A stretch of DNA of 64,000 nucleotides, from the NCBI RefSeq assembly GCF_018882335.1, contig NZ_JACVOS010000002.1:1-64000 (forward strand), written 5' to 3'. The notes beneath the pieces were generated by a model, which saw only the letters and a list, made by a program, of their open reading frames with translations, was not told the DNA's origin and made no database searches. The DNA is from Polynucleobacter sp. AM-25C3. Lineage in GTDB: Bacteria > Pseudomonadota > Gammaproteobacteria > Burkholderiales > Burkholderiaceae. Below, in pieces: positions 20,834 through 40,015 of this stretch. The translations under genes and the position numbers were made by a program. The first letter of the stretch is position 1; each line of letters starts with the position of its first letter.

Positions 20834-20883
20834 TGATTTAGGTGGCAGCAAGCAGCAATACATATAAAAAAGATGGAGAAGAC

Positions 20884-21669
20884 ATGGATTTAGGACTCAA
20901 AGGCAAAGTTGCCTTGGTGATGGCATCGAGCCGTGGTTTAGGGCAGGCAATGGCGGTTTCCTTGGCGCGTGAAGGTGTCAAAGTGGCAGTAACTGGTCGT
21001 AATGCTGAAGGTCTTAAAAAATCGGTTGAGTTGATTGAAGCTGCCGGTGGAAAAGCATTGGCTTTAAGCTGGGACTTGTCAGATAGCTCTGTAATTGATG
21101 CGTTGGTTACCAAAGTGGAGCAAGAGCTCGGTCCGATTGATATCTTGATTAACAATACGGGTGGGCCTCCACCAACGCTAGCGACGGGCCAAGACCCAGC
21201 TCTCTGGCAAAAAAGTTTTAACGATATGGTCTTATCGCTGATCAGCATTACCGATCGGGTTTTGCCGGGAATGCGTCAACGCAAGTGGGGTCGCATCATC
21301 ACGAGTACCACCTCTGGCGCTATTGCCCCTATTAAAAATCTTGCTATCTCCAATACCTTACGTGCGGCATTGCTAGCGTGGTCTAAAACTTTATCGGCGG
21401 AAGTTGCGGCTGAGGGGATTACTGTCAACGTGATCATGCCTGGACGTGTAGCAACCGACCGCTTGCGGCAGCTGGATGAGGCCCGTGCTCAACGTGAAAA
21501 TGTGAGCTATGACTCTGTGGTTAAAGCAAGTCAAAACCAGATTCCGATGGGGCGTTATGGCGACCCTCAGGAGTATGGCGATACAGCAACATTCCTAGCT
21601 AGTCAAAATGCCTCATTTATCACTGGCTCAGTGATACGCGTTGATGGTGGTCAGATACAGGCGATTTAA
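20884..21669 (+). CDS. Atypical short-chain dehydrogenase/reductase
   Basis: The start at 20884 follows GGAGAA and gives 261 residues; an upstream GTG (20842) is less likely. The nucleotide-binding motif ASSRGLGQAMA (residues 14-24), a structural NNTGGPPP (a variant of NNAG) and a C-terminal FITGSVIRVDGG are present. At the catalytic YxxxK position the sequence reads S156-N-T-L-R160, so Tyr is replaced by Ser and Lys by Arg, although the catalytic-Ser region (TSTTSG) is kept. It may be a non-classical reductase or have a non-enzymatic role. Often annotated as 3-oxoacyl-ACP reductase; that reaction is doubtful here. Confidence 0.85.
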   Translation: MDLGLKGKVALVMASSRGLGQAMAVSLAREGVKVAVTGRNAEGLKKSVELIEAAGGKALALSWDLSDSSVIDALVTKVEQELGPIDILINNTGGPPPTLATGQDPALWQKSFNDMVLSLISITDRVLPGMRQRKWGRIITSTTSGAIAPIKNLAISNTLRAALLAWSKTLSAEVAAEGITVNVIMPGRVATDRLRQLDEARAQRENVSYDSVVKASQNQIPMGRYGDPQEYGDTATFLASQNASFITGSVIRVDGGQIQAI

Positions 21670-21674
21670 TCTCA

Positions 21675-24149: not shown

Positions 24150-24179
24150 AGTTTGAGTCTACGTATTCTCAAGTGAAGC

Positions 24180-24719
24180 TTACGAGAGTGTGACGAGGTT
24201 CTTTGGCAACTCTACTAAACGTGTTCCACTAAAACGATCTGGCAGGCTTTGGCGTAGCAAAGGTTTGACGCGATTCAAGTAAATCGTGATTGGCCACAGA
24301 AATAAGGCAACAGTAAACAGCATTTCAATAATTTGCCACCTCTGTAATTCAAAGAGCCATTGCAGAAGAACGCACGGCACAATCCACAGAGATCCAAAGA
24401 CATAACGCCAAATCGCTTGACGACGTGTTAAGTTGTAGCCGCCAGGCCCAATTATGCGCACACGCCATGTCTGCATTGCTAATGTTTGCCCTGACTTAGT
24501 CCAGTACCAAACAAAGTAAACGCCCAGGACCGTATAGAGATAGAGAAAGGTGAGCCAACTTGGTAGCGAGACGCCAAACAGAATGCCCAAACCTAAATTG
24601 GGAACCAGGAAGGTGAGTGCGATCACGCCTAAGAGAACTAGCTGCTCGTAGAGCGTGCAAGATACGCGCCTCCAAAATTGCGGAGCGGGTAAGGCGTTTA
24701 ATTCAGCAGGCGTAATCAC
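24180..24719 (-). CDS. RDD-family membrane protein
   Basis: The 179-residue protein matches the RDD domain: an N-terminal RRVSCTLYEQLVLLGVIAL helix (Arg and Asp positions partly changed), then GQTLAMQTWRVRII and further helices. RDD proteins are small membrane proteins of mostly unknown function, some linked to Na+/H+ exchange or accessory roles. It ends the ECF sigma operon, 13 bp after the DUF3106 gene. Start and length are normal for the family. Confidence 0.78.
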   Translation of the reverse strand: MITPAELNALPAPQFWRRVSCTLYEQLVLLGVIALTFLVPNLGLGILFGVSLPSWLTFLYLYTVLGVYFVWYWTKSGQTLAMQTWRVRIIGPGGYNLTRRQAIWRYVFGSLWIVPCVLLQWLFELQRWQIIEMLFTVALFLWPITIYLNRVKPLLRQSLPDRFSGTRLVELPKNLVTLS

Positions 24720-24732
24720 GGCTTAGGGATTC

Positions 24733-25365
24733 TTAGGGATTGCTTGTGCTGCTATCTGAGCTTGTGCTTGGTGCTGCAGCTTCTGGAGCAGGTGTGCTAC
24801 TTGCCGGAAGAGTTGGGGCCAAGTTGGATTTTTGTGTGATCGGGTGCTGCTGTAATGTGGGCGCACTGACAGCCGTCGGTTTTTTCTTATTGACCTCTGC
24901 CTGAGCTAATTTCTTCTTTTGCTCATCACTCAGTTTTTGATAGGCACTCCAGGCCTCTGCTTTTTTCTCGGCTGGAAACTTGAGGCTGCTTAAGTAGTTC
25001 TCGCGCGCTATGCGGCGGTCTTTTTGGGAGAGCTTGGACCAGCTCGTCATGCGTGACTGTAGGCGCTGCTGGTCTACTTCGCTCATCTTTGGGTAGAGAT
25101 TAGCAACTTGGATCCATTTCTTGCGGCTGTCCGGGAGCATGTAGTCCCAATCGCTTTCGAGCGGGGCCAGGATTTGCTGTTGCCCAGGCTTAAGACCTTC
25201 CCATGTACCGTCGGGTTTTTTCTCAGGAACCCCAGTGGTTTTTCCATGAGCACCTGCGGAAGTTTGGGCTAAGGCATTTGCAGAAAAACCCAGTACGCCA
25301 ACTGTCAGCGCTAGCGCTGAACTAATCGCGAGCACTGCACAAAAAGAACGTAAGTTTTTTAGCAT
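24733..25365 (-). CDS. DUF3106-family exported protein
   Basis: The 210-residue protein has an N-terminal signal peptide (about residues 1-34, ending NALAQT). A helical, charged segment carrying a WEGLKPGQQQILAPLESDWD motif follows, then a proline/serine-rich tail. It resembles DUF3106 proteins found beside ECF sigma factors in Burkholderiales. The helical part loosely recalls periplasmic Spy/CpxP-like proteins, but that is speculation. It lies between the DUF3619 gene and the RDD gene. Confidence 0.75.
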   Translation of the reverse strand: MLKNLRSFCAVLAISSALALTVGVLGFSANALAQTSAGAHGKTTGVPEKKPDGTWEGLKPGQQQILAPLESDWDYMLPDSRKKWIQVANLYPKMSEVDQQRLQSRMTSWSKLSQKDRRIARENYLSSLKFPAEKKAEAWSAYQKLSDEQKKKLAQAEVNKKKPTAVSAPTLQQHPITQKSNLAPTLPASSTPAPEAAAPSTSSDSSTSNP

Positions 25366-25390
25366 GCGCTAATGAGGCTCGGTGTTGGCT

Positions 25391-25855
25391 TTAGGAGGGT
25401 GATTTGGATGAATCCAAGCTATCTTGCTCTGAATCGGCAAGGGGGCCATTTTTTAGGAAGCCCATAAAGCCACTATCAGCGTAAGCATCTGGCGGGACAT
25501 CATCGGTCAAGAGGGCTACATCTAATTCAGCGATATCGTTGATACGGGAATCCTGTTGCCATTGGGCAATACCAATTAAGCCAAACACGAGAACCACAAG
25601 TGGGGCAAGCCAACCGACGTTGTCCCAAAATGAGCGGGATCCAGATGACCAACTTCCAGTGGTGCTCGCCAGTACATGTTGCTGAATACGGACTTTTTCT
25701 GGTTTTTTGACCGAAATTGCTTTCATGCGCGCTGCGTACAGACGATCTTTGATGCCTGCTGGCAGGGATTGGGATCCGTGGCGGAGCAGGGCGGCAGTAG
25801 CTAGACCAAATTGGTCAACTTCTGTTGGGTTTAAGAGATCTTCATTGCGGTTCAC
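25391..25855 (-). CDS. DUF3619-family membrane protein, candidate anti-sigma factor
   Basis: The 154-residue protein has an N-terminal soluble region (about 1-75), one membrane helix (VGWLAPLVVLVFGLIGIAQW, roughly 77-96) and a short acidic C-terminal part. Its start overlaps the sigma factor stop by 4 bp. A one-helix protein translationally coupled to an ECF sigma gene is the usual layout for an anti-sigma factor, so that role is inferred; a zinc-type anti-sigma motif is not visible. Confidence 0.75.
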   Translation of the reverse strand: MNRNEDLLNPTEVDQFGLATAALLRHGSQSLPAGIKDRLYAARMKAISVKKPEKVRIQQHVLASTTGSWSSGSRSFWDNVGWLAPLVVLVFGLIGIAQWQQDSRINDIAELDVALLTDDVPPDAYADSGFMGFLKNGPLADSEQDSLDSSKSPS

Positions 25856-26421
25856 AGCGTAATTCCTTTTAATTTCAATGCTTTAGCTAGAGCCTGAGTG
25901 GCTCTTGAGCAGTGGGTTTTGACACTTCCTTCGCTACAACTCATTGCAAGGGCCGTTTCAGTAATGCTCAGCTCATCCCAATAACGCATCAGGAAGGCTT
26001 CTCGTTGACGGGCGGGCAATTTTGATATTTCTGACTCTAAAGCCTGTAAAAGCTGACTTCGCTCTAGTTGATGTGCCCCATCTTGGTGAATTTCACTGTC
26101 ATCTGGGGCTGAAAGTGACTCCAGAGGGTCAAAATCATCGTTTTCATCCGATTTCTTGCCCATGTTGGAGAAGAGAGTCACCCAGGTATTGCGGACCTTT
26201 TGGCGCCTAAACCAGTCGTGAATGCGGTTTTGCAGAATTCTGGTGAAAACCAGGGGTAACTCGGCTGCAGGGCGGTCACCATATTTTTCGGTCAACTTGA
26301 TCATGGCGTCCTGAACAATATCGAGGGCAGCATCGTCATCTCGCACAGCGTAAACCGCTTGCTTGAAAGCGCGCTGCTCGACACTGCTTAGAAAATCAGA
26401 AAGTTCTTGGGGTGAAGCCAT
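25852..26421 (-). CDS. ECF-type RNA polymerase sigma factor
   Basis: The 189-residue protein has region 2 (residues about 15-80, DIVQDAMIKLTEKYGDRP) and region 4 (about 130-180, LPARQREAFLMRYWDELSI then a helix-turn-helix with SEGSVKTHCSRA), joined by an acidic linker. It belongs to the group 4/ECF family. It heads an operon with DUF3619, DUF3106 and RDD genes and is divergent from ilvB. The regulon and stimulus are unknown. Confidence 0.88.
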   Translation of the reverse strand: MASPQELSDFLSSVEQRAFKQAVYAVRDDDAALDIVQDAMIKLTEKYGDRPAAELPLVFTRILQNRIHDWFRRQKVRNTWVTLFSNMGKKSDENDDFDPLESLSAPDDSEIHQDGAHQLERSQLLQALESEISKLPARQREAFLMRYWDELSITETALAMSCSEGSVKTHCSRATQALAKALKLKGITL

Positions 26422-26450
26422 TCAGTAGATTAGACCTGAATCAGATGGAA

Positions 26451-26478
26451 TTGGTTGATTTTAGGGGATTGCTATAGA
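26451..26478 (+). promoter_or_regulatory. Probable sigma70 promoter of the ilv operon
   Basis: TTGGTT (26451-26456) and TATAGA (26473-26478) are separated by 16 bp. The implied transcription start near 26484 coincides with the first base of a structured leader. Confidence 0.5.
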
Positions 26479-26483
26479 ATATA

Positions 26484-26598
26484 GGGCTTACTACCTAGAA
26501 TCTCATTCAAGAAGTGGTTTTTTCCGGTAGCAGCGCCGTTCGAACTCAGGCCATAAGCAGGAGACAGAACAGACCAAACAATTTTTTGCCAAAAATTG
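26484..26598 (+). ncRNA. Structured leader RNA upstream of ilvB (candidate cis-regulatory element)
   Basis: Nested pairings are visible: GCTTA (26486-26490) with TAAGC (26554-26558), directly stacked on CTACC (26491-26495) with GGTAG (26526-26530), enclosing a GAAT-CTC-ATTC mini-hairpin. A separate perfect 8-bp hairpin (26579-26586 with 26591-26598) ends three bases before the AAGGA ribosome site. No Ile/Val/Leu-rich leader peptide was found, so ribosome-stalling attenuation is unlikely. A betaproteobacterial RNA motif associated with ilv genes has been reported (named ilvH); whether this is a member needs a covariance-model search. Confidence 0.45.
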
Positions 26599-26614
26599 CA
26601 AAGGACGAAAGAAA

Positions 26615-28402
26615 ATGAATACAAGCAGCGCCGAATTTTTAGCTTCTAAAGCTAATCAAGACACATCAAATCCAAATTCCGTAGAAGCTCCACCAGAAAT
26701 CATTGGTGCGGAAATGCTCGTGCGAGCTTTGCACAAAGAGGGTGTTGAATACGTTTGGGGTTACCCAGGGGGTTCTGTTCTCTTTATCTATGATGAAATT
26801 TTTAAGCAGGACAAGTTTGAACATATTCTTGTTCGCCATGAGCAAGCAGCAGTTCATGCGGCCGATGGCTATGCACGCGCAACCGGTAAGGTTGGTGTTG
26901 CGCTAGTTACTTCAGGCCCTGGTGTAACCAATGCGGTTACCGGAATTGCTACCGCCTATACCGATTCGATCCCGATGGTGATCATTAGCGGTAACGTGCC
27001 AACGTATGCGATTGGTGAAGATGCTTTCCAAGAAGCGGATACCGTTGGTATTACTCGCCCAGTGGTAAAGCACAACTTCTTAGTTAAAGACGTAAGAGAC
27101 CTTCCTTTAGTGATTAAGAAGGCTTTCCATATTGCGCAAACAGGTCGTCCAGGCCCAGTGTTGATTGATATCCCTAAGGATGTATCAGCAGCTAAGGCGC
27201 CGTTTGTATATCCAGAAACGCTAGAGATGCGTTCCTATAACCCCGTAGTGAAGGGTCATAGTGGACAAATTCGTAAAGCGGTTTCTTTATTGCAAGAAGC
27301 AGAGCGCCCATACATCTACACCGGTGGTGGTGTGATTTTGGCTGATGCCGCTCCAGAATTAAAAGAGTTTGCTGATTTATTGGGTTACCCGGTAACCAAT
27401 ACCTTAATGGGTCTTGGCGGCTTCCCTGGCACTAGCCCTCAGTTCTTGGGCATGTTAGGTATGCATGGTACATATGAAGCCAATATGGCGATGCAACACA
27501 GCGATGTGTTGATTGCCATCGGTGCGCGTTTTGATGACCGCGTGATTGGCAACACTGCACACTTTGCAAGTCACCCACGTAAGATTATTCATATTGATAT
27601 CGACCCATCCGTGATTTCTAAGCGGGTGAAGGTAGATGTTCCCATCGTTGGCAATCTCAAGGAAGTATTGCAAGAGATGACTGCACAGCTCAAAGCTGGC
27701 GGCCCACGTAAGAATGACGCTAAGTTAGCGGCATGGTGGGAGCAGATTAACGAGTGGCGTAAAAAAGATTGCTTGAAGTACGACGAGGCATCCCAAATTG
27801 TCAAACCACAGTATGTAGTTCAAAAGTTGTGGGAGCTGACTGGTGGTGATGCATTTATTACATCTGACGTTGGTCAACATCAGATGTGGGCAGCTCAGTT
27901 CTATAAGTTTGATAAACCACGTCGCTGGATTAACTCCGGCGGTCTTGGCACTATGGGCGTTGGCTTGCCATACGCCATGGGTATCAAGAAAGCTTTCCCG
28001 GACCAAGATGTATTTGCTATTACTGGCGAAGGCTCGATTCAGATGTGTATTCAGGAGCTATCCACTTGTAAGCAATACAACACGCCTGTGAAGATCGTGT
28101 CTCTGAACAACCGTTACCTTGGTATGGTTCGTCAGTGGCAAGAGCTGACTTATAACAAGCGTTATTCCAGTTCTTATATGGACTCTTTGCCGGACTTTGT
28201 GAAGTTGGCAGAGGCCTTTGGCCACGTTGGTATGCGTATTGAGAAGAAATCGGATGTTGAAGGCGCCCTCAAAGAAGCGATTCGTTTGAAAGATCGCACT
28301 GTGTTTATGGATTTCCAGACAGACCCAGAAGAAAACGTTTGGCCAATGGTTCAAGCAGGTAAGGGTATTACTGAAATGCTTTTGGGTAGCGAGGATCTCT
28401 AA
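26615..28402 (+). CDS. ilvB: Acetolactate synthase, large (catalytic) subunit
   Basis: The 595-residue ThDP enzyme has GAEMLVRALHKEGVEYVWGYPGGSVL at the N-terminus and RHEQAAVHAADGYARATG with the catalytic Glu. The C-terminal Mg-ThDP motif is GEGSIQM with LNNRYLGMVRQW. It condenses two pyruvates to acetolactate, or pyruvate with 2-oxobutyrate, the first shared step of valine, leucine and isoleucine synthesis. A ~35-residue N-terminal extension precedes the core. Its stop overlaps the ilvN start by one base (TAATG). Symbol may equally be written ilvI. Confidence 0.95.
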   Translation: MNTSSAEFLASKANQDTSNPNSVEAPPEIIGAEMLVRALHKEGVEYVWGYPGGSVLFIYDEIFKQDKFEHILVRHEQAAVHAADGYARATGKVGVALVTSGPGVTNAVTGIATAYTDSIPMVIISGNVPTYAIGEDAFQEADTVGITRPVVKHNFLVKDVRDLPLVIKKAFHIAQTGRPGPVLIDIPKDVSAAKAPFVYPETLEMRSYNPVVKGHSGQIRKAVSLLQEAERPYIYTGGGVILADAAPELKEFADLLGYPVTNTLMGLGGFPGTSPQFLGMLGMHGTYEANMAMQHSDVLIAIGARFDDRVIGNTAHFASHPRKIIHIDIDPSVISKRVKVDVPIVGNLKEVLQEMTAQLKAGGPRKNDAKLAAWWEQINEWRKKDCLKYDEASQIVKPQYVVQKLWELTGGDAFITSDVGQHQMWAAQFYKFDKPRRWINSGGLGTMGVGLPYAMGIKKAFPDQDVFAITGEGSIQMCIQELSTCKQYNTPVKIVSLNNRYLGMVRQWQELTYNKRYSSSYMDSLPDFVKLAEAFGHVGMRIEKKSDVEGALKEAIRLKDRTVFMDFQTDPEENVWPMVQAGKGITEMLLGSEDL

Positions 28403-28893
28403 TGCGACATATTATTTCTGTACTCATTGAGAACGAACCAGGTGCATTGTCCCGCGTTGTAGGTTTGTTCTCTGCACGTGGCTACAACATTGAAACCTTG
28501 AGCGTTGCGCCTACTGAGGATCCATCGCTTTCCCGTATGACGATTGTCACGATTGGCTCTGAGGATGTGATTGAACAAATTACTAAACACTTAAATCGTT
28601 TGGTTGAAGTGGTGAAAGTATTTGATCTCACTGAAGGCCCTCATATTGAGCGCGAGCTCATGATGATTAAAGTGCGCGCAGTAGGTAAAGAACGCGAAGA
28701 GCTGAAACGAACAACGGATATCTTCCGTGGTCGCATCATCGATGTGACTGATAAGAGTTACACCATTGAATTAACTGGTGATGGTGCCAAATTAGATGCC
28801 TTTATTGATTCGATTGATCGTGCATCGATTCTGGAAACTGTCCGCTCGGGTGGTTCTGGTATTGGGCGCGGCGAACGCATCCTCAAGGTTTAA
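28402..28893 (+). CDS. ilvN: Acetolactate synthase, small regulatory subunit
   Basis: The 163-residue protein begins MRHIISVLIENEPGALSRVVGLFSARG, an ACT domain that binds valine for feedback inhibition, and has a C-terminal ~80-residue domain. Length and sequence are of the IlvH type. It activates and regulates the catalytic subunit encoded immediately upstream, with which it overlaps by one base. Symbol may equally be ilvH. Confidence 0.94.
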   Translation: MRHIISVLIENEPGALSRVVGLFSARGYNIETLSVAPTEDPSLSRMTIVTIGSEDVIEQITKHLNRLVEVVKVFDLTEGPHIERELMMIKVRAVGKEREELKRTTDIFRGRIIDVTDKSYTIELTGDGAKLDAFIDSIDRASILETVRSGGSGIGRGERILKV

Positions 28894-28902
28894 TTTTTTT
28901 AA

Positions 28903-29961
<1,059 letters not shown>

Positions 29962-30015
29962 GCAAAAAAGTACATTAGAAACGAATAGTAGTAACTAAAA
30001 AGGCTCAGAACAAAG

Positions 30016-30663
30016 ATGATGTATCCACACCCCATTATTGCGAAAGAAGGCTGGCCGTATTTGGCATTAGTGGGGGCTGTAACTTTGCTAGTCCACTATC
30101 TCGGTGGCATTGTATGGTCATGGCCACTGTGGATTATCTTTATCTTTGTTTTGCAGTTTTTCCGTGATCCACAGCGTATTGCTGCGTTAGGTCGTGATCT
30201 GGTTTTATCCCCAGCTGATGGTCGTATCGTTGTGGTTGAAGTAGCGAATGACCCTTACGCAGGTCGTGAAGCTTTGAAGATTAGTGTTTTTATGAATGTA
30301 TTTAACGTTCACTCCAACCGAAGTGCGGTCAACGGTACGGTAAAAGAAATTCAGTATTTCCCTGGCAAGTTTGTAAACGCCGATTTAGATAAAGCTTCTA
30401 CTGAGAATGAGCGTAACGCCGTTGTCATAGATGCTAATGGCCAAATCGTGACCCTGGTTCAAGTGGCGGGCTTAATTGCACGTCGCATTCTTTGCTATAT
30501 CCATGTGGGTGATAGGCTTAAAGCAGGCGAGCGTTATGGCTTTATTCGCTTTGGCTCCCGTGTGGATGTATATTTGCCATTAACAGCAGAGCCTTTGGTC
30601 AGTGTTGGTGATAAAGTTTTTGCTACGAACACCGCATTAGCACGCATACCCGGCTTAGATTAA
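30016..30663 (+). CDS. psd: Phosphatidylserine decarboxylase proenzyme (short form)
   Basis: The 215-residue protein is of the short PSD class. Helices near the N-terminus anchor it to the membrane. The self-cleavage site is the Gly-Ser in [13 protein letters not shown], which yields the pyruvoyl cofactor. It makes phosphatidylethanolamine from phosphatidylserine. It starts with ATGATG; either codon may be used. It is directly upstream of pssA, the preceding enzyme of the same pathway. Confidence 0.94.
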
Positions 30664-30690
30664 TTAAGTCGCTTTAACAGGGAATATTCT

Positions 30691-31554
30691 TTGAGCACAT
30701 TTCGTCGTCGTGGCCGTATAGACCGTAGTCGCCTCGCCCCAAAACGCATTGAGCGTTCGCAGGCTGAGTGGTCCGAAGATCTTGGTGATGAAATTGATTT
30801 CGAAGTGGAAGAGCTGCATGCGGATAAGCCGCGTCAACGCAGTAAAGGTATTTACCTGCTCCCCAATGCATTTACTACAGCCGCTTTGTTCTGTGGTTTC
30901 TTTGCCATCGTCAATGCCATGAACCACCAGTTTGAGATGGCTGCTATTGCCATCTTTGCGTCCTTGGTTTTAGATGGTATGGATGGTCGCGTTGCCCGTA
31001 TGACCAATACCCAAAGCGCCTTTGGTGAGCAGTATGACTCTCTTGCGGATATGGTGTCATTTGGTGTGGCTCCAGCATTGGTTGCTTATGAGTGGGCTCT
31101 AAAAGATTTAGGTAAGTGGGGTTGGTTGGCTGCCTTTACTTATTGCGCGGGCGCTGCTTTGCGTCTAGCGCGTTTTAATGTGAACACGGGCGTTGTCGAT
31201 AAGAAGTTTTTCCAAGGCTTGCCAAGCCCAGCTGCGGGCTCTTTGATGGCGGGTTTCATTTGGCTGGCTGATGACAATAAGATCCCAGTACGTGATAGCG
31301 CGATTCCTTGGATCACTTTCTTCCTGGCTGTTTATGCTGGCTTGACCATGGTTTCGAATGCCCGTTTCTATAGTGGCAAGGCCTTAGATGTGCGCTACCG
31401 CGTCCCCTTTGGTGTAATGGTCTTAATGATTCTGACCTTTGTTTTGATCTCCTCTAACCCGCCTTTAACCCTATTCGGTCTCTTTGTGGTGTATTCCATT
31501 TCAGGTTATGTCATTTGGGCGTGGGAGCATCTCAGTGGCCGACGTTTTAGCTAA
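30691..31554 (+). CDS. pssA: CDP-diacylglycerol-serine O-phosphatidyltransferase
   Basis: The 287-residue protein starts at TTG, with AGGGA 8 bases upstream. The N-terminal ~50 residues are basic and hydrophilic. The CDP-alcohol phosphotransferase motif (DGRVAR at start, then FGEQYDSLADMVSFG) is complete with its four aspartates, and several membrane helices follow. It makes phosphatidylserine from CDP-diacylglycerol and serine. It is coupled to psd and lies between ilvC and the leuA attenuator. Confidence 0.94.
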   Translation: MSTFRRRGRIDRSRLAPKRIERSQAEWSEDLGDEIDFEVEELHADKPRQRSKGIYLLPNAFTTAALFCGFFAIVNAMNHQFEMAAIAIFASLVLDGMDGRVARMTNTQSAFGEQYDSLADMVSFGVAPALVAYEWALKDLGKWGWLAAFTYCAGAALRLARFNVNTGVVDKKFFQGLPSPAAGSLMAGFIWLADDNKIPVRDSAIPWITFFLAVYAGLTMVSNARFYSGKALDVRYRVPFGVMVLMILTFVLISSNPPLTLFGLFVVYSISGYVIWAWEHLSGRRFS

Positions 31555-31582
31555 TTTGGAATATTTAGGTTATATTTAATCC

Positions 31583-31672
31583 ATGTTGATGAATTTCTCA
31601 CCCTTATCCAGCTTGCCTAGCGGGAAACTGCTTCTAGCACTAAGCCTACAGCTTGGGGCAGGTAAGGCCTGA
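31583..31672 (+). CDS. leuL: Leucine leader peptide of the leuA attenuator
   Basis: A 29-codon open frame (ATG TTG ATG AAT ... TGA) contains nine leucines. Six of these lie in codons 16-24, using CTG, CTT, CTA, CTA, CTA, CTT; CUA is usually a rare codon. Start could also be the ATG at codon 3. It is not similar to a known protein; its role would be ribosome stalling when charged leucyl-tRNA is scarce. It lies upstream of a terminator and leuA. Confidence 0.8.
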   Translation: MLMNFSPLSSLPSGKLLLALSLQLGAGKA

Positions 31673-31742
31673 GTTAATGAGATTAAAGTAATTCATTAGC
31701 CGCCACATACCAGCCCCAGCTAATTGCTGGGGTTTTTGTTTT
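31650..31742 (+). promoter_or_regulatory. leuA transcription attenuator (antiterminator and terminator)
   Basis: Terminator: stem CCCCAGC (31714-31720) with GCTGGGG (31726-31732), loop TAATT, then TTTTTGTTTTT. Competing antiterminator: 31650-31662 pairs with 31710-31721 in 11 base pairs, with one A-A mismatch and one bulged T, consuming the terminator's 5' arm. A ribosome stalled at the first Leu codons (31628-31636) leaves 31650 onward free, so the antiterminator forms. One reaching the stop codon (31670) covers it, so the terminator forms. Both structures are read directly; the logic is inferred. Confidence 0.8.
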
Positions 31743-31780
31743 TAAGATTAAGAAATTCGATATTGAACCGGAGAGTAGTG

Positions 31781-33328
31781 ATGAGCGACAAAGTAATCAT
31801 TTTTGATACCACCTTACGTGATGGCGAACAATCGCCTGGTGCCTCAATGACTAAAGACGAAAAGGTTCGGATTGCCCGCCAATTAGAGCGCCTTAAGGTG
31901 GATGTGATCGAGGCCGGATTTGCTGCCAGCTCCGAAGGGGATTTCCAGGCAATCTCTGCTGTTGCTGCTGCCGTGAAGGATTCGATTGTTTGCTCACTTG
32001 CTCGCGCTAATGATAAAGATATTACCCGCGCTGCTGATGCTTTGAAGGCCGCCAATGCAAAACGCATTCATGCTTTCTTGGCTACTAGTCCATTGCATAT
32101 GGCAGTGAAGTTGCGCATGTCACCTGAAGAGGTATTGGAGCAAGCCAAGCGCTCCATTCGTTTTGCTAGAAACTTGGCTGAGGATGTCGAGTTCTCAGCT
32201 GAAGATGGCTATCGCTCAGAAATGGATTTCTTATGCAGAGTGGTAGAAGGCGTCATTAATGAAGGCGCCACCACTATTAATATCCCAGATACTGTAGGCT
32301 ATGCCACGCCAGAGTTGTATGGAGATTTCATTAAAACTTTGCGTACTCGTGTACCTAACTCCGATAAAGCGGTATGGTCTGTGCATTGTCACAATGACTT
32401 GGGGATGGCGGTGGCCAATTCCTTGGCAGGTGTCAAGATTGGTGGAGCGCGTCAAATCGAATGCACGATCAATGGTTTGGGTGAGCGCGCTGGGAATACT
32501 GCCTTAGAAGAAATTGTCATGGCTTTACGTACTCGCAAAGATTACTTCGATATGGTGTGTGGTATTGATGCAAGCCAAATTGTTCCAGCCTCGAAGTTGG
32601 TTTCTCAGATCACGGGTTTTGTAGTTCAACCCAATAAAGCAGTGGTTGGCGCCAATGCTTTTGCTCACACCTCAGGTATTCATCAGGATGGCATCTTGAA
32701 GAACCGTGACACCTATGAAATCATGCGTGCAGAAGATGTAGGTTGGGCGACTAACAAGATTGTCTTGGGTAAATTATCAGGACGCAATGCCTTCAAGCAA
32801 CGTTTGCAAGAGTTGGGTATTGCGATTGAAGCAGAGGCAGATTTGAATGAAGCCTTTGTGCGCTTTAAATCTTTGGCTGATCAAAAATCAGAAATCTTTG
32901 ATGAAGATATTATTGCCATCATGTCCGATTCTGCTGCGGCTGAGGCAGGCGAGTTTTATAAATTCATTTCTTTGAGTCAGCATTCTGAAACAGGTGAGCG
33001 ACCAAAATCTAAAGTCACCTTCCGAGTTGGCGATAAAGAGGCTAGCTCTGAGGCTGAAGGCAATGGCCCGGTTGACGCTAGCTTGAATGCGATTGAAGAG
33101 ATTGTGAAGAGTGGGGCAGAGCAGTTGCTCTATTCAGTAAACGCCATTACTTCTGGTACGCAGTCTCAAGGTGAGGTTACCGTGCGACTTGCTAAGGGTG
33201 GGCGCATCGTCAATGGCGTTGGAACTGATCCAGACATCATTGCTGCATCAGCGAAAGCCTACTTATCTGCACTCAATAAATTGCATGATCCTAGCCAAGC
33301 TAAGCTCAATGCGCAGATGACGCCTTAA
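31781..33328 (+). CDS. leuA: 2-Isopropylmalate synthase
   Basis: The start at [21 protein letters not shown], preceded by GGAGAG, gives 515 residues; the longer frame from 31724 would overlap the attenuator and is rejected. The HMGL-like TIM barrel shows the metal-binding [13 protein letters not shown] and NGLGERAGN motifs. The C-terminal LeuA regulatory domain binds leucine (feedback). It condenses acetyl-CoA with 2-oxoisovalerate, the first committed step to leucine. Transcription is probably controlled by the leucine attenuator upstream. Confidence 0.96.
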
Positions 33329-33361
33329 GAATTTCTCGGCGAGATCTGCATCACCATCCCT

Positions 33362-33955
33362 TTATTTATTGAGGTCTGTGTTTTTGTAGTACTTGGTGCC
33401 CTTGCCGGTGATTTCCGCGGCAAGGCCTGAGTCTGTCAGTTGATACATCAAAACGCCAGGCGCCACTAAGGTGGCGTCTTGATAGGCAGTTCCATTAGTT
33501 TCGTATTTGGCAGCAGCAGTAACTTGACCGCCAAAAGTCCAGCCAGAGTTTACAAAGTCATTCAGGGCGGATTGTGTTTGAAATACAAAAATATTTTGGA
33601 ATGATTTAATTCCAATCCCAAGTCCAGCTTGTACTTCAGCCATATTCATATAAATGGGTTTAGCCCTATCTTTTTGAATTACGACGCCACTGCCAGTGCC
33701 ACCGCCAGCAATCAAAATCTTCATGCCAAAATTACTAAAGGTTGCATAGCCAGTTGATTTTTCAATGACTTCTTTTGCTTTGGGTTGGGCTTGATAGAGC
33801 GCCTTCAGAGTGTCATCACTCTTCTTTAGAATATCTTGACGTTGCTGAACAATCGTTTTTTCAGCGCCAAATGGATTTGAAAATTGCGCGAAGCTCAAGG
33901 CAGGAGATAAGGCTAATAGACTATAGGCTAGTACGTGAATGAGTTTGGCTTGCAT
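33362..33955 (-). CDS. YSC84/SYLF-domain exported lipid-binding-type protein
   Basis: The 197-residue protein, started at ATG with AGGA nearby (a TTG one codon upstream is ignored), has a signal peptide ending near SPALSFAQ. The rest matches the SYLF/Ysc84 domain: GYATFSNFGMKILIAGGGTGSG and GLGIGIKSFQNIFVF. SYLF proteins bind phosphoinositides in eukaryotes; the bacterial role is unclear but export suggests an envelope function. It is convergent with leuA and divergent from the patatin gene. Confidence 0.8.
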   Translation of the reverse strand: MQAKLIHVLAYSLLALSPALSFAQFSNPFGAEKTIVQQRQDILKKSDDTLKALYQAQPKAKEVIEKSTGYATFSNFGMKILIAGGGTGSGVVIQKDRAKPIYMNMAEVQAGLGIGIKSFQNIFVFQTQSALNDFVNSGWTFGGQVTAAAKYETNGTAYQDATLVAPGVLMYQLTDSGLAAEITGKGTKYYKNTDLNK

Positions 33956-34040
33956 CAATTTTCCTTTGCTTTATTTCCGCAATGAATGAATTCCATCTTT
34001 ATACTCCAATCAAACTCTAATATCCCTTTGGCTAATTACC

Positions 34041-35246
34041 ATGCGCCCATTCATTCATTTGATCTTTATTTGCCTCATGCTCTCATTGGCGGGGTGCAGT
34101 AGCCTGCAACGCAAAGCAGCAGTGCCATCTCAGCAGATGGGGCAAGCCCAAATCGCTGGTTTATCAGGCGTGAGGTATATGGTTGCTAGTCAATCTAGCA
34201 TAGATCAAATGGCGGCGGATATCCAGGCTGGATTTAAGGTTAGAAGTGAAAAGACATTAAATACATCTGCAAATTACCTATCTCTATCTGGCGGTGGTGA
34301 CGATGGGGCTTATGGTGCGGGACTGCTCATTGGTTGGTCCGAGCGGGGCGATCGCCCGCAATTTAATTTGGTTACCGGTATTAGTACGGGCGCTTTGATT
34401 GCACCTTTTGCATTTATGGGGAAAGAGTACGATCCCGCTCTTCGCCACGTTTATACCCAGCTTGGCCCACAAGATATCTTTATAGAACGGGGTTTAATTT
34501 CCGGGATTCTAGGGGATGGGCTATCGGACACCACACCACTCTATCAATTGATTTCTCAATTTGTTGATGACGCTTTCTTGAAGAAGGTGGCCTATGAGTA
34601 CACCACTAAAAACCGCTGGCTGCTCATTGGCACCACCAATTTAGATGCCGGAGTTCCTGTGGTCTGGAATATGGGGAAGATTGCCAGCATTGGTACGCCT
34701 GAAGCCCTCGATCTTTTTAGAAAAATCATGCTGGCCTCTGCTTCTATTCCTGGGGCTTTTTCTCCGGTGATGTTTGATTTTGAGGTGGCTGGTCAAAGCT
34801 TCCAAGAGATGCACGTGGATGGCGGGGCGATCACCCAGGTGTTTTTATATCCCAGTGCATTGTCTCAACGTTCTCAAGACCTAAAGCTGAAGCTCCAAAA
34901 ACAGCGCAATGCCTACATTATTCGAAACGCACGCTTGGATCCAGAATGGCGTGAGACGGAGCGGGGCACGCTCAGCATTATTCAAAGAGCAATCTCTAGT
35001 TTGATTCAGACTCAGGGTGTTGGCGATCTGTACCGGATTTATCACACTACCCAGGTTGACGGCGTGAGCTTTAATCTGGCCTATATTGGATCAGACTTCA
35101 AATTCCCGCATCAAACCGAGTTTGATACGGCTTACATGCAGGCTCTTTTTGATTATGGCTATAAACAGGGTCTTAGCGGCAAAGAGTGGCAAAAGTACCC
35201 TCCGGGCTACAAACGTGGATTTGATGAGGAATTGCCTAAAAAATAG
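34041..35246 (+). CDS. Patatin-like phospholipase lipoprotein
   Basis: The 401-residue protein has a lipoprotein signal with lipobox LAGC (Cys19). The patatin domain shows the oxyanion-hole glycine segment GGGDDGAYGAG (residues 84-94), the nucleophile elbow GISTG (Ser115) and the DGG motif (Asp260), so the Ser-Asp dyad is complete. It probably hydrolyses acyl lipids in the envelope, but substrate and acting membrane leaflet are not readable. It is a single-gene unit ending in its own terminator. Confidence 0.85.
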   Translation: MRPFIHLIFICLMLSLAGCSSLQRKAAVPSQQMGQAQIAGLSGVRYMVASQSSIDQMAADIQAGFKVRSEKTLNTSANYLSLSGGGDDGAYGAGLLIGWSERGDRPQFNLVTGISTGALIAPFAFMGKEYDPALRHVYTQLGPQDIFIERGLISGILGDGLSDTTPLYQLISQFVDDAFLKKVAYEYTTKNRWLLIGTTNLDAGVPVVWNMGKIASIGTPEALDLFRKIMLASASIPGAFSPVMFDFEVAGQSFQEMHVDGGAITQVFLYPSALSQRSQDLKLKLQKQRNAYIIRNARLDPEWRETERGTLSIIQRAISSLIQTQGVGDLYRIYHTTQVDGVSFNLAYIGSDFKFPHQTEFDTAYMQALFDYGYKQGLSGKEWQKYPPGYKRGFDEELPKK

Positions 35247-35254
35247 GCATTTTT
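35233..35254 (+). terminator. Intrinsic terminator overlapping the patatin stop codon
   Basis: TGCCTA (35233-35238) pairs with TAGGCA (35244-35249) around an AAAAA loop, followed by TTTTT. The stop codon lies in the 3' arm. Confidence 0.65.
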
Positions 35255-35265
35255 ACTCACTTTCA

Positions 35266-35277
35266 TGATAATTATCA
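35266..35277. promoter_or_regulatory. Perfect 12-bp palindrome TGATAATTATCA
   Basis: It lies between the patatin terminator and rpsO. It resembles an AT-rich half-type Fur or other repressor site, but no full 19-bp Fur box is formed. Function unknown. Confidence 0.25.
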
Positions 35278-35365
35278 ATTAAATCAATAACTTATATTCA
35301 TTTTTCTGATTGAGGCCTGCTTAGGGTGCCTAGCCCTAGGGTGGGGCATTTAAGGGGGGATCTGC

Positions 35366-35371
35366 TACAAT
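35366..35371 (+). promoter_or_regulatory. Candidate -10 element of the rpsO promoter
   Basis: TACAAT lies about 100 bp upstream of rpsO after a G-rich stretch. No good -35 hexamer is at standard spacing, so this is a weak call. Confidence 0.3.
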
Positions 35372-35473
35372 TCGAGGGCTTTGATTTTTAAAGCTTTTTT
35401 GTTTTATTTGATTAATAAATGCACGACACGAATTGGGTGAAAGCTCAGGTGTTCGCAAGTAAGGAGTATGAAA

Positions 35474-35743
35474 ATGGCAGTTGCTGATATTAAAACGGCG
35501 GAAATCGTCAAAGAAAACGCGCGCAGCGCAAACGATACGGGCAGTCCTGAAGTTCAAGTTTCATTGTTAACAGCCCGCATCAATGAATTAACCCCCCATT
35601 TCAAAGCTAATGCTAAAGATCATCACAGCCGTCGTGGTTTGTTGAAGATGGTCTCACGCCGTCGCCGTCTCTTGGATTACCTCAAGGGCAAGGATTTGGG
35701 TCGCTACCGCGCATTGATCGAGAAATTAGGTCTCCGTAAGTAA
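35474..35743 (+). CDS. rpsO: 30S ribosomal protein S15
   Basis: The 89-residue product from [17 protein letters not shown] is of normal S15 length and ends in LRK. AAGGAG is seven bases before this ATG and only one before the upstream ATG (35468), deciding the start. The [17 protein letters not shown]-type region binds 16S rRNA. S15 is paired with pnp downstream, the universal rpsO-pnp arrangement, and S15 often autoregulates its own mRNA. Confidence 0.96.
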
Positions 35744-35760
35744 TTCTTATTGGTATTGCA

Positions 35761-35821
35761 ATGCCATCTATCTTAGGGTTGTTTCGTAACAGAATCAGTC
35801 TTAAGCAGATGGCATGTTTTT
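35761..35821 (+). terminator. Probable intrinsic terminator after rpsO
   Basis: ATGCCATCT (35761-35769) pairs perfectly with AGATGGCAT (35807-35815), with extra pairing inside (TCTTA with TAAG-C-AGA region), followed by GTTTTTT. The long loop suggests partial termination, so rpsO and pnp may still be co-transcribed. Confidence 0.55.
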
Positions 35822-35824
35822 TGG

Positions 35825-35966
35825 GCGCTTCAAGATTATTTGTGTAGGGGATCGTGTCATTCCAATGAGTTTCTGAGTTTGCGAACTTAGTGTCTCCCTG
35901 GAATGGCATCCCTTGTAATCTTCAAACGCTCCAGTGTTGTCGTGACACTGCTTTATCCCACGACAA
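35825..35966 (+). promoter_or_regulatory. Long structured pnp leader (RNase III-type double hairpin)
   Basis: Positions 35825-35929 form one long imperfect hairpin. The outer arms are GCG..TT.AAGATTA against TAATCTT.AA..CGC. Mid pairings are GGGAT/ATCCC and CATTCCA/TGGAATG. The tip is GAG...CTGAGTT-TGCG-AACTTAG...CTC. A second hairpin is TTGTCGTG (35937-35944) with CACGACAA (35959-35966). E. coli pnp has an RNase III-cleaved double stem-loop in its leader used for PNPase autoregulation; this is a plausible counterpart by position and shape. Confidence 0.65.
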
Positions 35967-36014
35967 GCGTGAAATCCATGTGGCTTTTACGTGAACAATT
36001 TGGAGAAGATCAGA

Positions 36015-38192
36015 ATGTCTATATTTAACAAAGCAGTAAAAACGTTTCAATGGGGCAACCATCAAGTAACGATGGAAACAGGCGAGATCGCTCGTCAAGC
36101 CGGCGGTGCCGTCATCGTGAACATCGATGACACCGTAGTGATGGGAACAGTAGTTGCTTCTAAGTCAGCTAAGCCTGGCCAGTCTTTCTTCCCGCTGACT
36201 GTTGATTACCTCGAAAAAACATACGCTGCAGGAAAAATTCCTGGTGGCTTCTTCCGTCGTGAAGGTCGTCCATCCGAAGGTGAGACATTGATCTCCCGTT
36301 TGATCGATCGTCCACTACGTCCATTATTCCCAGAAGGCTTCTTGAACGAAGTTCAGGTAGTGATTCATGTGTTGTCTATCAACCCTGATGTTCCTTCTGA
36401 TATTCCCGCATTGATCGCTGCTTCTGCAGCCTTGGCTGTTTCAGGCATTCCATTTGCTGGTCCGGTTGGCGCAGCGCGCGTTGGTTACGCTAATGGCCAA
36501 TACCTCTTGAACCCAACTCGTACAGAGCAAGCTACTAGCGAGATGGATTTAATCGTAGCTGGTACACAAGCTGCTGTATTGATGGTTGAGTCAGAAGCTA
36601 ATCAGTTGTCTGAAGAAATCATGTTGGGTGCGGTTGTGTATGGTCATGACCAAATGCAAACTGCGATCAACGCAATTAACGAATTAGTAACTGAAGCTGG
36701 TAAGCCAGAATGGGATTGGACTGCAGCTCCTAAAGATGAGCCATTCATTGCTAAAGTAACTGCATTGGCTGAAGCGCCATTGCGTGAGGCTTATCAGATT
36801 CGCCAAAAAGGTGCTCGTTCAGACAAACTTAAAGAGACTACTAAAACAGTATTAGCTAAGCTAGCTGAAGAGGGTGATGTTGATGCGGTTGCCGTTAACG
36901 ACATCTTGTTTGAAATCGAAGCGAAGATTGTTCGTAGCCAGATTTTGAATGGCGAGCCACGTATTGATGGTCGTGATACACGCACTGTTCGTCCGATTGA
37001 AATTCGTAATGGCGTATTACCACGCACACATGGTTCAGCATTGTTTACTCGTGGTGAAACACAGGCTCTCGTAGTAGCCACTCTAGGTACAGCCCGTGAT
37101 GAGCAGATCATCGACGCGCTCGAAGGCGAGTACCGTGATCGCTTTATGTTCCACTACAACATGCCTCCGTTCGCTACGGGTGAAACTGGTCGCGTAGGTA
37201 GCCCTAAGCGTCGTGAAATTGGTCACGGCCGTTTGGCAAAGCGCGCATTGATTCCAGTATTGCCAAGTGCAGAAGATTTTGCATACAGTATTCGTGTTGT
37301 TTCAGAAATCACTGAGTCCAATGGTTCTTCATCCATGGCTTCCGTTTGCGGTGGCTGTTTAGCAATGATGGACGCTGGTGTTCCAGTGAAAGCGCACGTT
37401 GCTGGTGTAGCAATGGGCTTGATTTTGGATGGCAATCGTTTTGCTGTGTTGACCGATATCTTGGGTGATGAAGATCACTTGGGCGATATGGACTTCAAAG
37501 TAGCCGGTACTGCTAATGGTATTACTGCTTTGCAAATGGACATTAAGGTTCAAGGTATTACTAAAGAAATTATGCAAGTTGCTTTAGCTCAAGCTAAAGA
37601 AGGTCGTTTGCACATTTTGAGCAAGATGCAAGAAGCGATGGGTTCAGTTCGTACTGAATTGTCTGCACATGCTCCACGTATGGTTTCTTTCAAGATTCAT
37701 CCAGACAAGATTCGTGAAGTAATTGGTAAGGGCGGCGCAACAATTCAAGCCTTGACCAAGGAAACTGGTTGCAGCATCGACATTAAAGATGATGGTACTG
37801 TAACTATTGCTTCTACTTCTGCTGAAGGCATGGCTGAAGCGAAAGCGCGTATCGAAGGCATTACTGCTGAAGCTGAAGTAGGCAAGATCTACGAAGGTCC
37901 GGTTGTGAAGTTGCTCGAGTTTGGTGCTTTGGTAAACATTCTTCCGGGTAAAGATGGTCTCTTGCATATCTCTGAAATCTCCAATGAGCGCGTAAAAGAA
38001 GTTAAAGACTATTTGGCAGAAGGCCAAGTGGTTCGCGTGAAATTGCTAGCTGCTGATGAGCGTGGTCGTTTGCGTTTATCCCTCAAGGCTGCGATGGCTG
38101 ATGAGGGTGGCACGATTGCTCCTTTGGCTGGTGCATCTGCAGTTGCTGATGCTCCTGCTGAAGCTGCTCCAGCATCTGACGAAACTGCTTAA
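36015..38192 (+). CDS. pnp: Polyribonucleotide nucleotidyltransferase (PNPase)
   Basis: The start at [14 protein letters not shown], with GGAGAA upstream, gives 725 residues; an upstream GTG is rejected. Two RNase PH-like domains, a linker helical region, a KH domain ([16 protein letters not shown]) and an S1 domain ([21 protein letters not shown]) are in the canonical order, with an Ala-rich tail. It degrades RNA phosphorolytically from the 3' end and works in the degradosome. It follows rpsO and a structured leader. Confidence 0.96.
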
Positions 38193-38217
38193 GTAAAGTC
38201 AGCGAGCAGGAGTTCAT

Positions 38218-39216
38218 ATGCGCGTAATGGAAATCAAAGAGTTTGGTGCACCAGAAATGTTGGTGCCCGCCACTCGTCCTGATCCAGTAGCTCCGGCTGC
38301 TGGTACGGGTGAGATTTTGATTAAAGTAATTGCCGCGGGCATTAATCGCCCAGATGTATTGCAACGCAAAGGCCATTACCCAGTTCCTGCGGGCGCATCT
38401 GATATTCCCGGTCTCGAAGTGGCTGGCGAGATTGTGGGTGGTGATTTAAGTCACGCTGATAATCTCTTTGGACTTAAGGTAGGCGATAAAGTTTGTGCGC
38501 TTGTGCAAGGTGGTGGTTACGCAGAGTTGTGTACCGCCCCGATTGCGCAATGCTTGCCTTACCCAACAGGTTTTACCGATCAAGAAGCGGCTGCATTGCC
38601 TGAAACTTTCTACACCGTCTGGAGCAATGTCTTCATGCGTGGCGAGTTATCTGAAGGTGAAACCTTGTTAGTGCAGGGCGGCTCTAGCGGCATTGGTGTG
38701 ACTGCGATTTTGATCGCTAAAGCTTTGGGCCATAAAGTGTTTGTTACTGCCGGTACCGATGAGAAGTGCGCTGCTTGCGTAGCTTTAGGTGCTGACTTGG
38801 CGATCAATTACAAGACGCAAGACTTTGTAGAAGAGGTCAAGAAAGCGACCGACGGTAAGGGTGTCAACGTTGTACTCGACATGGTTACTGGTGCCTACGT
38901 TCAAAAAGAAATTGATTGCTTGGCTGATGATGGTCGCATTGTGATCATTGCGATTATGGGTGGCTCTAAGGCTGAAGTAAATACGGGTCAGATTTTGCGT
39001 CGTCGTTTAACGATTACCGGATCAACCTTACGTCCACGTCCAGTGTCATTTAAAAAGCAGATCACACAACAACTACATGCACGCATCTGGCCTTTGCTAG
39101 ATGCGGGTAAGTTAAAGCCTGTGATTTACAAAACATTTACCTTAGATCAAGCGGCTGATGCCCATCGCTTGATGGAGTCTTCCGAGCACGTTGGCAAGAT
39201 TGTTTTAACTGTTTAA
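38218..39216 (+). CDS. NAD(P)H quinone oxidoreductase (zinc-free MDR family, PIG3-like)
   Basis: The 332-residue protein has GFGAPEML-like N-terminus and GINRPDVLQRKGHYPVPAGASDIPGLEVAGEI, typical of the TP53I3/PIG3 quinone reductase group, then the nucleotide-binding GGSSGIGVTAILIAKALGH motif. Catalytic zinc ligands are absent. It would reduce quinones with NADPH. It lies 25 bp after pnp with CAGGAG before the ATG, and upstream of tpiA; this order recurs in Burkholderiales. Confidence 0.88.
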   Translation: MRVMEIKEFGAPEMLVPATRPDPVAPAAGTGEILIKVIAAGINRPDVLQRKGHYPVPAGASDIPGLEVAGEIVGGDLSHADNLFGLKVGDKVCALVQGGGYAELCTAPIAQCLPYPTGFTDQEAAALPETFYTVWSNVFMRGELSEGETLLVQGGSSGIGVTAILIAKALGHKVFVTAGTDEKCAACVALGADLAINYKTQDFVEEVKKATDGKGVNVVLDMVTGAYVQKEIDCLADDGRIVIIAIMGGSKAEVNTGQILRRRLTITGSTLRPRPVSFKKQITQQLHARIWPLLDAGKLKPVIYKTFTLDQAADAHRLMESSEHVGKIVLTV

Positions 39217-39233
39217 GTATTGATCTAGATTTC

Positions 39234-39992
39234 ATGCGTCCACTCACTGTTATCGGCAATTGGAAAATGAACGGCAGTCTTGCAAGTAATGCAGACTGGG
39301 TCAAGACCGTTTGTCGGGGTATGGAGCAAGGTATGCCGGCAGGTCGCAAGTATGCAGTGTGCGTTCCAACTCCTTATTTGGCGCAGTGTGGCGAATTAAT
39401 TCATGACTGTTCCTTGGCTTTTTTAAGCCTGGGCGCTCAGGATGTCTCCGCCTTTGCTTCGGGTGCGTATACCGGTGAGGTCGCTGCTTCCATGCTCAAG
39501 GAATTGGCTTGTACTTACGTTATTGTTGGGCATTCAGAGCGTCGCCAATACCATCAGGAGGTTGATGAGCAGGTTGCCGAGAAAGCCCTTCAGGTTCTCG
39601 ATAACGGTATGATCCCCGTCATTTGTGTTGGTGAGTCTGCGGATGAGCGTAACTCTGGTCGTGAAGTAGAGGTTGTCAGAGGCCAGATTTCTAAGCAGGT
39701 GGCGATACTGCAAGATCGTCTGGCCGACTGCTTAATTGCTTACGAGCCCATTTGGGCTATTGGTACAGGCAAGGTTGCTAGCGCTCAGGTGGCTCAGGAT
39801 ATGCATCGCGCTATCCGTTTGCAGCTGGCTGAATTTGATGAAGATGTAGCTTCCCATGTGGGAATCTTGTATGGCGGCAGCGTTAAACCTGACAATGCCG
39901 TTGAACTATTTGCAATGCCAGATATTGATGGCGGATTGATTGGGGGTGCTTCATTGAGCCCACAGGATTTCTTAGTGATTTGTCAGGCCTAG
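39234..39992 (+). CDS. tpiA: Triosephosphate isomerase
   Basis: The 252-residue TIM barrel has GNWKMNG at the N-terminus (catalytic Lys), VGHSERR (electrophile His), YEPIWAIGTGKVAS (catalytic Glu and flexible loop) and YGGSVKPDNA plus GLIGGAS phosphate loops. It interconverts glyceraldehyde-3-phosphate and DHAP. It lies between the quinone reductase and secG, the standard order in the family. Confidence 0.96.
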   Translation: MRPLTVIGNWKMNGSLASNADWVKTVCRGMEQGMPAGRKYAVCVPTPYLAQCGELIHDCSLAFLSLGAQDVSAFASGAYTGEVAASMLKELACTYVIVGHSERRQYHQEVDEQVAEKALQVLDNGMIPVICVGESADERNSGREVEVVRGQISKQVAILQDRLADCLIAYEPIWAIGTGKVASAQVAQDMHRAIRLQLAEFDEDVASHVGILYGGSVKPDNAVELFAMPDIDGGLIGGASLSPQDFLVICQA

Positions 39993-40015
39993 AATTTTTT
40001 ATTGGGAGATAAGCC

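Follow-up and report, generated by a model that had tools for sequence, protein, structure and literature searches.

A conserved leucine-rich leader before leuA in Polynucleobacter: a probable leucine-sensing transcription attenuator with an apparently leaderless mRNA

The region between pssA and leuA of Polynucleobacter sp. AM-25C3 holds a short leucine-rich reading frame followed by an intrinsic terminator (Table 1). All coordinates refer to the window, that is, the whole 64,000-nt stretch of contig NZ_JACVOS010000002.1 that was analysed. We take the regulated gene to be leuA from the gene name given in an earlier sequence-only reading of this DNA together with a LeuA motif, and a single leuA match was found in the genome of the window. 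The leader frame begins 28 nt after the stop codon of pssA and translates as MLMNFSPLSSLPSGKLLLALSLQLGAGKA followed by a stop; as the sequence-only reading had stated, nine of its 29 codons specify leucine, and these start at 31586, 31604, 31613, 31628, 31631, 31634, 31640, 31646 and 31652. No similar leader was seen by eye before the upstream ORF at 26615.

Table 1. Features of the pssA-leuA region, in window coordinates, with the basis of each assignment.
Feature	Position	Strand	Basis and remarks
Upstream gene pssA	30691..31554	+	ORF; gene name taken from the earlier sequence note
Candidate -35, TAGCTA	31548..31553	+	Weak; 17-nt spacing; overlaps the pssA end; function a guess
-10-like hexamer TATATT	31571..31576	+	6 nt before the leader ATG; sequence, conserved in relatives
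Leader peptide frame (proposed name leuL)	31583..31672	+	Sequence, comparison with relatives; no SD-like word
Control codons CTG CTT CTA GCA CTA AGC CTA CAG CTT	31628..31654	+	Frame translation, codon conservation
Protector / pause hairpin (segments 1:2)	31637..31659	+	31637-31644 with 31652-31659; RNAalifold consensus
Antiterminator 5' arm (segment 2)	31650..31664	+	AGCTTGGGGCAGGTA; folding, complementarity
Antiterminator 3' arm (segment 3)	31708..31721	+	TACCAGCCCCAGCT; overlaps the terminator 5' arm
Intrinsic terminator (segments 3:4)	31712..31742	+	Stem 31712-31734, core 31714-31720/31726-31732, then T-rich tail
leuA, 2-isopropylmalate synthase, regulated gene	31781..33328	+	SD-like GGAG at 31770-31773

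Taken by itself, the leucine density of the frame is neither unique nor exceptional within the window, the best 12-codon stretch of the leader (6 Leu) sharing third place in a ranking of 921 ATG frames 12-45 codons long. Terminator-like sites alone are likewise at chance level, with 2 found and 2.0 expected in a 1.4-kb stretch. Since leucine count and terminator pattern are unexceptional when considered alone, the case for a regulatory element depends on their position and on their conservation.

The hairpin that the sequence-only reading had located at 31714-31732, together with its T-run, is present as CCCCAGC-TAATT-GCTGGGG, and the terminator scan gave it a stem of nine pairs. Folded alone, 31712-31736 reached -16.6 kcal/mol compared with -6.6 for shuffles (z -4.3). 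Pairing between the leader and the terminator 5' arm had also been proposed, for 31650-31662 with 31710-31721; the helix is real and extends to 31650-31664 with 31708-31721, but it is interrupted, AGC(T)TGGGGC(A)GGTA facing TACC(A)GCCCCAGCT with one bulge and one mismatch. When 31640-31740 was folded without the upstream part, this antiterminator was in the MFE structure (-37.5, z -3.1, with 0/200 shuffles as good), whereas the fold of the complete region, 31570-31745, contains the terminator in its place (z -2.7, again 0/200). To these two structures we add a protector or pause helix, absent from the sequence-only reading, which lies within the frame and overlaps the control codons. Its two outer pairs are weak in the window (0.22-0.23 in 31583-31670), and the isolated piece 31628-31662 is predicted to fold otherwise, CUGCUUC pairing with GGGGCAG in a rival use of the same arm.

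Conservation was assessed in 82 distinct sequences upstream of leuA derived from 91 loci, namely 77 from a genus search and the 14 nearest named loci, the latter assigned to Polynucleobacter by a LeuA identity of at least 81% (four of their titles carry no genus name). A leucine-rich frame, meaning one with 6 or more Leu among 12 codons, precedes leuA in all 82, and our own script found a terminator between frame and gene in each of them. A stricter terminator pattern left 79 distinct sequences (L012 did not match this pattern and one was a duplicate), from which 51 were chosen for alignment A1 and 35 for alignment A2. The terminator core is paired in 100% of cells in the 51 aligned sequences, five of its seven pairs never varying, and in the aligned Polynucleobacter leaders the protector helix is paired in 94.7% of cells and the antiterminator in 83.2%.

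The best covariation among the helices of the element belongs to the protector, with 19 double-change cells compared with 4.7 in shuffles (a value that 0/500 reached) and no more than 8 in slid controls; the excess over the slid controls is expected in part because the structure was proposed from the same alignment. Among these changes are synonymous ones on both sides of the helix, for instance CTA/CTT replaced by CTG/CTC. Covariation of the antiterminator is weak: five of its pairs show double changes (2.4 in shuffles, 8/500 as high) in 8 cells (5.1 in shuffles, 42/500 as high), its covariation score was reached by 58/500 shuffles and its further pair types by 433/500, and two slid control versions exceed it in covariation score. 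The GGGG core of this helix is shared by three helices, and it would therefore hardly be able to vary. In an alignment-independent test with mononucleotide shuffles, no more than 10 of 200 shuffled leaders equalled the native leader in complementarity to the terminator arm; this held for 82/82 regions, with a mean z of -3.0.

The codons of the frame point to leucine as the conserved quantity. Codon column 12 specifies leucine in 74 of 75 sequences by means of six different codons (CTA 18, CTC 17, CTT 15, CTG 14, TTG 9, TTA 1), and columns 18, 19 and 21 do so in 74, 76 and 77 of the 77 distinct leader coding sequences; this retention of leucine under codon turnover implies that leucine is what the frame must encode. 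For codon, Shine-Dalgarno and hexamer-position work 81 of the 82 upstreams were used; L074, in which 9 nt separate hexamer and ATG, was dropped. Of all Leu codons CTA is the least used in 44 long ORFs of the window (8.4% of 1733), but it accounts for 33% of the 707 Leu codons in the 81 leaders, which are related, so that these codons are not independent.

A covariance model, R1, built from 35 Polynucleobacter sequences, which therefore match by construction, found the element in 99/101 genus genomes at E <= 1.5e-8 and in 100/101 at E <= 0.01, with one match in the genome of the window. The two remaining genomes do not show the leuA 5' end: G074, which is 56% complete and has no R1 match, has a leuA match that begins with residue 199 where a contig starts, and G027, whose best R1 hit has an E of 0.0019, is without a true leuA match. 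Seven strong matches (G033, G057, G075, G013, G015, G003 and G053) all lie, by eye, about 40-60 nt before leuA. With the frame in 82/82 upstreams and the stems recurring in relatives, the leucine attenuator with mutually exclusive hairpins put forward in the sequence-only reading gains support. One locus stands apart in another respect: in L077 (G188:C1:1364254-1365783) the leuA match contains eight in-frame stops and is possibly a decayed leuA, with leader frame and terminator present.

The same reading had found no clear promoter just upstream, a view that we revise, given the conserved -10-like hexamer abutting the leader; its -35 partner is poor. In our test, a hexamer TAnnnT with at least 4/6 matches to TATAAT had to lie 5-8 nt before an in-frame leader ATG, any such ATG being allowed, which helps the count. 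It was found in 81/82 distinct Polynucleobacter regions (at 6 nt in 70), in 46/50 regions of other Burkholderiales that reach 4 or more Leu per 12 codons and in 4/10 with 3 Leu, compared with 14%, 4% and 1% in the respective mononucleotide shuffles and with 0/82, 0/49 and 0/10 at the ATG where leuA starts. Hexamer position counts refer to 77 distinct upstreams, kept because the hexamer was found. None of four SD-like 4-mers precedes the leader of the window, and such words occur before 9/81 leaders compared with 75/81 leuA starts. The lack of a Shine-Dalgarno word in the window and the closeness of the hexamer to the ATG suggest that the leader mRNA is probably leaderless, with its own promoter right at the first codon, and the hexamer position makes a transcription start on the leader ATG, or no more than 1-2 nt away from it, likely. 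Passages on Burkholderia cenocepacia (PMC4603805) and Cupriavidus metallidurans (PMC7563307) document leaderless mRNAs in these species; 'leader peptide', 'isopropylmalate' and 'leucine' are absent from the main texts of both papers.

The hexamer could instead be an AT-rich coincidence, with the attenuator served solely by read-through from ilv-psd-pssA and the leader translated by reinitiation after the nearby pssA stop. This would agree with the terminator scan, which found no terminator-like site between pssA and the leader (31554-31583), with a consensus promoter scan, which found no + strand site in that interval, and with the poor -35. In Polynucleobacter, 21/81 leaders have a -35 with at least 4 matches where 11.8 are expected, the recurring TAGCTA sitting inside the pssA end where it may reflect coding conservation, and among 46 named Burkholderiales regions a -35 with that many matches is no commoner than expected (4 regions, compared with 4.6). 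Against it stands the hexamer itself, held at 5-8 nt in Polynucleobacter and other Burkholderiales far above shuffles and present also in some of the regions whose leaders have no more than 3 Leu per 12 codons. Further evidence comes from a sample of the order comprising 64 of 168 matching genomes (24 outside-family loci, of 27 new, and 40 regions, mostly one per family), of which 10 were dropped when the LeuA motif was not found and 54 were usable. A leucine-rich frame with an abutting -10 occurs in 22/54 of these upstreams, and these leaders, with other peptide ends, surpass expectation in the -35, with at least 4 matches in 10/22 (2.0 expected) and TTGCnn at 17 nt in 15/22. We therefore judge exclusive supply by read-through to be unlikely. 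As no terminator-like site follows pssA, the leuA terminator may also stop read-through RNA from the upstream operon.

On this evidence we consider it highly probable, at roughly 90%, that leuA is under a ribosome-mediated transcription attenuator that senses leucine, a reading well supported by comparison. The frame, the helices and their conservation are observed in the sequences, and we infer where transcription starts, that the leader is translated, that ribosomes stall in it and that leucine sets the outcome. The switch would operate as follows. RNA polymerase would start at the dedicated promoter whose -10 box adjoins the leader, and the nascent mRNA, its 5' end on or beside the leader ATG, would be translated without a Shine-Dalgarno sequence. 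The early hairpin at 31637-31659 may pause the polymerase and let the ribosome catch up. With charged tRNA-Leu scarce, the ribosome would wait at the Leu codons 31628-31640 and cover the 5' side of the protector hairpin, so that 31650-31664 would be free to pair with 31708-31721; this antiterminator pairing would preclude the terminator and leuA would be transcribed. With leucine plentiful, the ribosome would proceed to the stop codon and cover 31650-31664, the terminator at 31712-31734 would form, and transcription would end with an RNA of about 150-160 nt.

The geometry envisaged in the sequence-only reading, in which the antiterminator arm is freed by early Leu stalls and hidden once the ribosome has arrived at the stop codon, is reproduced when the ribosome footprint is assumed to end 13 nt past the hungry A-site codon. 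In this model the arm is free when the ribosome stalls at 31640 or at an earlier Leu codon, and masked for a stall at 31646 or 31652 or for a ribosome at the stop codon. For RNA made to 31724, the computed antiterminator probability with stalls up to 31640 is 0.998-0.999. Once the complete terminator is present, 31628 is the single stall position for which the antiterminator wins at equilibrium (0.82), the other stalls giving 0.02-0.46. Since equilibrium mostly favours the terminator, the switch would need co-transcriptional kinetics, and timing is likewise decisive in classic attenuators. The ribosome-free state is ambiguous, because untranslated nascent RNA to 31724 favours the antiterminator over the protector (0.999), whereas complete RNA without a ribosome favours the terminator.

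Conservation of the peptide end in most genus loci examined would also be compatible with nascent-peptide arrest, in which the terminal LGAGKA, and not hungry Leu codons, would stall the ribosome on leucine or another ligand. This stretch is kept as nucleotides, however, and belongs to helices: its Gly codon, which falls in the antiterminator arm, reads GGG in 76/77 leaders. Related species end in LGSVHA, GAGIRVHQ or GVRENALG, and in L034:113-268 a one-base deletion, maybe an assembly error, alters the peptide end and shifts the stop downstream with the antiterminator letters kept. The constancy of GGG and the L034 case imply that the end of the frame is kept mainly as RNA, and we regard arrest by the peptide as very improbable. 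Even less credence is due to the idea that the hairpin simply ends transcription of ilv-psd-pssA in a constitutive manner, with the leucine-rich frame incidental. The hairpin does sit at the operon end, in a stretch where terminator-like sites are at chance level and in a window where short leucine-rich frames are not rare; against this, the Leu positions are conserved with synonymous turnover, a covarying helix lies inside the frame, and leader and terminator arm are complementary throughout the genus set. A ligand-binding riboswitch or T-box in place of a translated leader would fit the conserved structure but is extremely improbable, the frame being conserved as protein and Rfam, Leu_leader included, giving no match at the leader of the window at E up to 10 (20000-40000 searched) and none, at E up to 1, at the leaders in two sets of related loci (12 and 10).

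From sequence comparison, the probable leucine attenuator is conserved through Polynucleobacter and has analogues across the order, where leaders carry a different peptide and a different RNA. Among 84 distinct upstreams from outside the genus, our own rule yielded no leader for 24, and in another 10 the count was just 3 Leu per 12 codons. R1, applied to 200 genomes of the order, gave strong scores only in three Polynucleobacter genomes; eight other matching genomes (E 3e-4 to 9e-3) were treated as chance. In the complementarity test a terminator was present in 32/50 leaders outside the genus, of which 8/32 were matched by at most 10/200 shuffles (mean z -1.1), and the fold of one Comamonadaceae-type leader, cut inside the terminator, did not surpass its shuffles (z +1.1). 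Given this weak complementarity, we limit the antiterminator claim to Polynucleobacter.

In the order sample, 32/54 upstreams had no leader; the controls for the 22 that did were 1.2% in mononucleotide shuffles and 1/54 on the reverse strand, and some of the 22, for instance L212, may be due to chance. Fourteen of the 22 end in LLLRxxR, six of these in LLLRPAR, and no obvious intrinsic terminator was seen in those LLLRxxR-type leaders that were inspected by eye. Leaderless-looking leaders ending in LLLRPAR or similar lie upstream of leuA in L216, L219, L231, L238, L246, L248 and others; they mostly have TTGCnn-17-TATAtT or TATAgT before the ATG and a similar RNA around CTGCTGCTGCGCCCCGCGCGCTAA, often with a C-rich stretch after the stop. 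Burkholderia/Paraburkholderia-type leaders (L087, L089, L116, L139, L144 and L168) end in ALALARLPR or similar and have TATAGT-7-ATG, and our script found no terminator in these six.

Tentatively, and with our own estimate somewhat short of even odds, these leaders might form an order-wide betaproteobacterial class of leaderless leuA leaders, with promoter-gated sensing, a frame retained across families and an exchanged output part. If so, only transcripts of the abutting promoter would be efficiently translated and sense leucine, and ilv-psd-pssA read-through would be blind to it. The output would consist of intrinsic terminators in Polynucleobacter and Comamonadaceae-type lineages, and the LLLRPAR or ALARLPR lineages would use one without an obvious intrinsic terminator. 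Should the pattern hold, it would allow one to ask how a leaderless frame restricts sensing to one promoter and how the output of an attenuator is replaced while its sensor stays.

Leucine attenuators before leuA are textbook systems, and the enterobacterial leu leaders use the rare CUA codon, as does the leader described here. The Polynucleobacter leader resembles the enterobacterial leu attenuator in its leucine-rich leader before leuA, its alternative hairpins and its terminator, and differs in its peptide, in having a -10-like hexamer instead of a Shine-Dalgarno sequence before the start, and in lacking a match to Leu_leader (RF00512), which we take to be the attenuator of the enterobacterial leu operon (leuL-leuABCD). 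Despite this lack of a match, it should work like Leu_leader. The E. coli leu leader is given as 28 aa with 4 Leu in a passage of PMC6123439. In Campylobacter jejuni, a member of another class, a short leader with rare Leu codons likewise precedes leuA: LeuL, a 28-aa leader before leuABCD whose RNA, according to a passage of PMC3847290, ends soon after the stop.

Leaderless leaders have parallels in other attenuators. The trpL attenuator RNA of Sinorhizobium meliloti (rnTrpL / peTrpL) has its 5' end at the leader ATG in the description excerpted from PMC7298713, as we presume for the leuA leader; it differs in sensing Trp rather than Leu, in preceding trpE(G) rather than leuA, and in its reported trans functions. 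The ilvBNC attenuator of Corynebacterium glutamicum (ilvL), also a branched-chain amino acid leader, starts transcription one nucleotide from the start codon according to a passage of PMC11857589 and is without a ribosome binding site according to the title of a work cited there; a start beside the start codon would be the shared trait, and the other phylum, the other gene, the mixed Ile/Val/Leu codons and the 292-bp leader region set it apart. With the actinobacterial LEU element our leader shares a Leu-run frame before leuA, and the pseudoknot, in which a base stem pairs Leu codons with the leuA Shine-Dalgarno sequence, is a feature of the LEU element, for which its authors deemed classical attenuation unlikely (passages of PMC1262725).

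No published Burkholderiales leuA leader was found in the open-licence literature, and passages of PMC8632094, which analysed Polynucleobacter necessarius, are without 'leuA' or 'leucine'. The Polynucleobacter leader thus seems undescribed so far, though the type of switch is well known. It would add a defined leucine switch to a freshwater genus with small genomes, and probably represents a betaproteobacterial leader peptide with a leaderless mRNA, in which synonymous codon choice is apparently held by RNA pairing within a tiny frame.

Elsewhere in the window, 35399-35530 scored 24.7 bits as a ribosomal S15 leader, below the gathering threshold of 39.5, and L150 gave a similar sub-threshold match (25.4 bits); the window segment is perhaps a divergent S15 autoregulatory leader.
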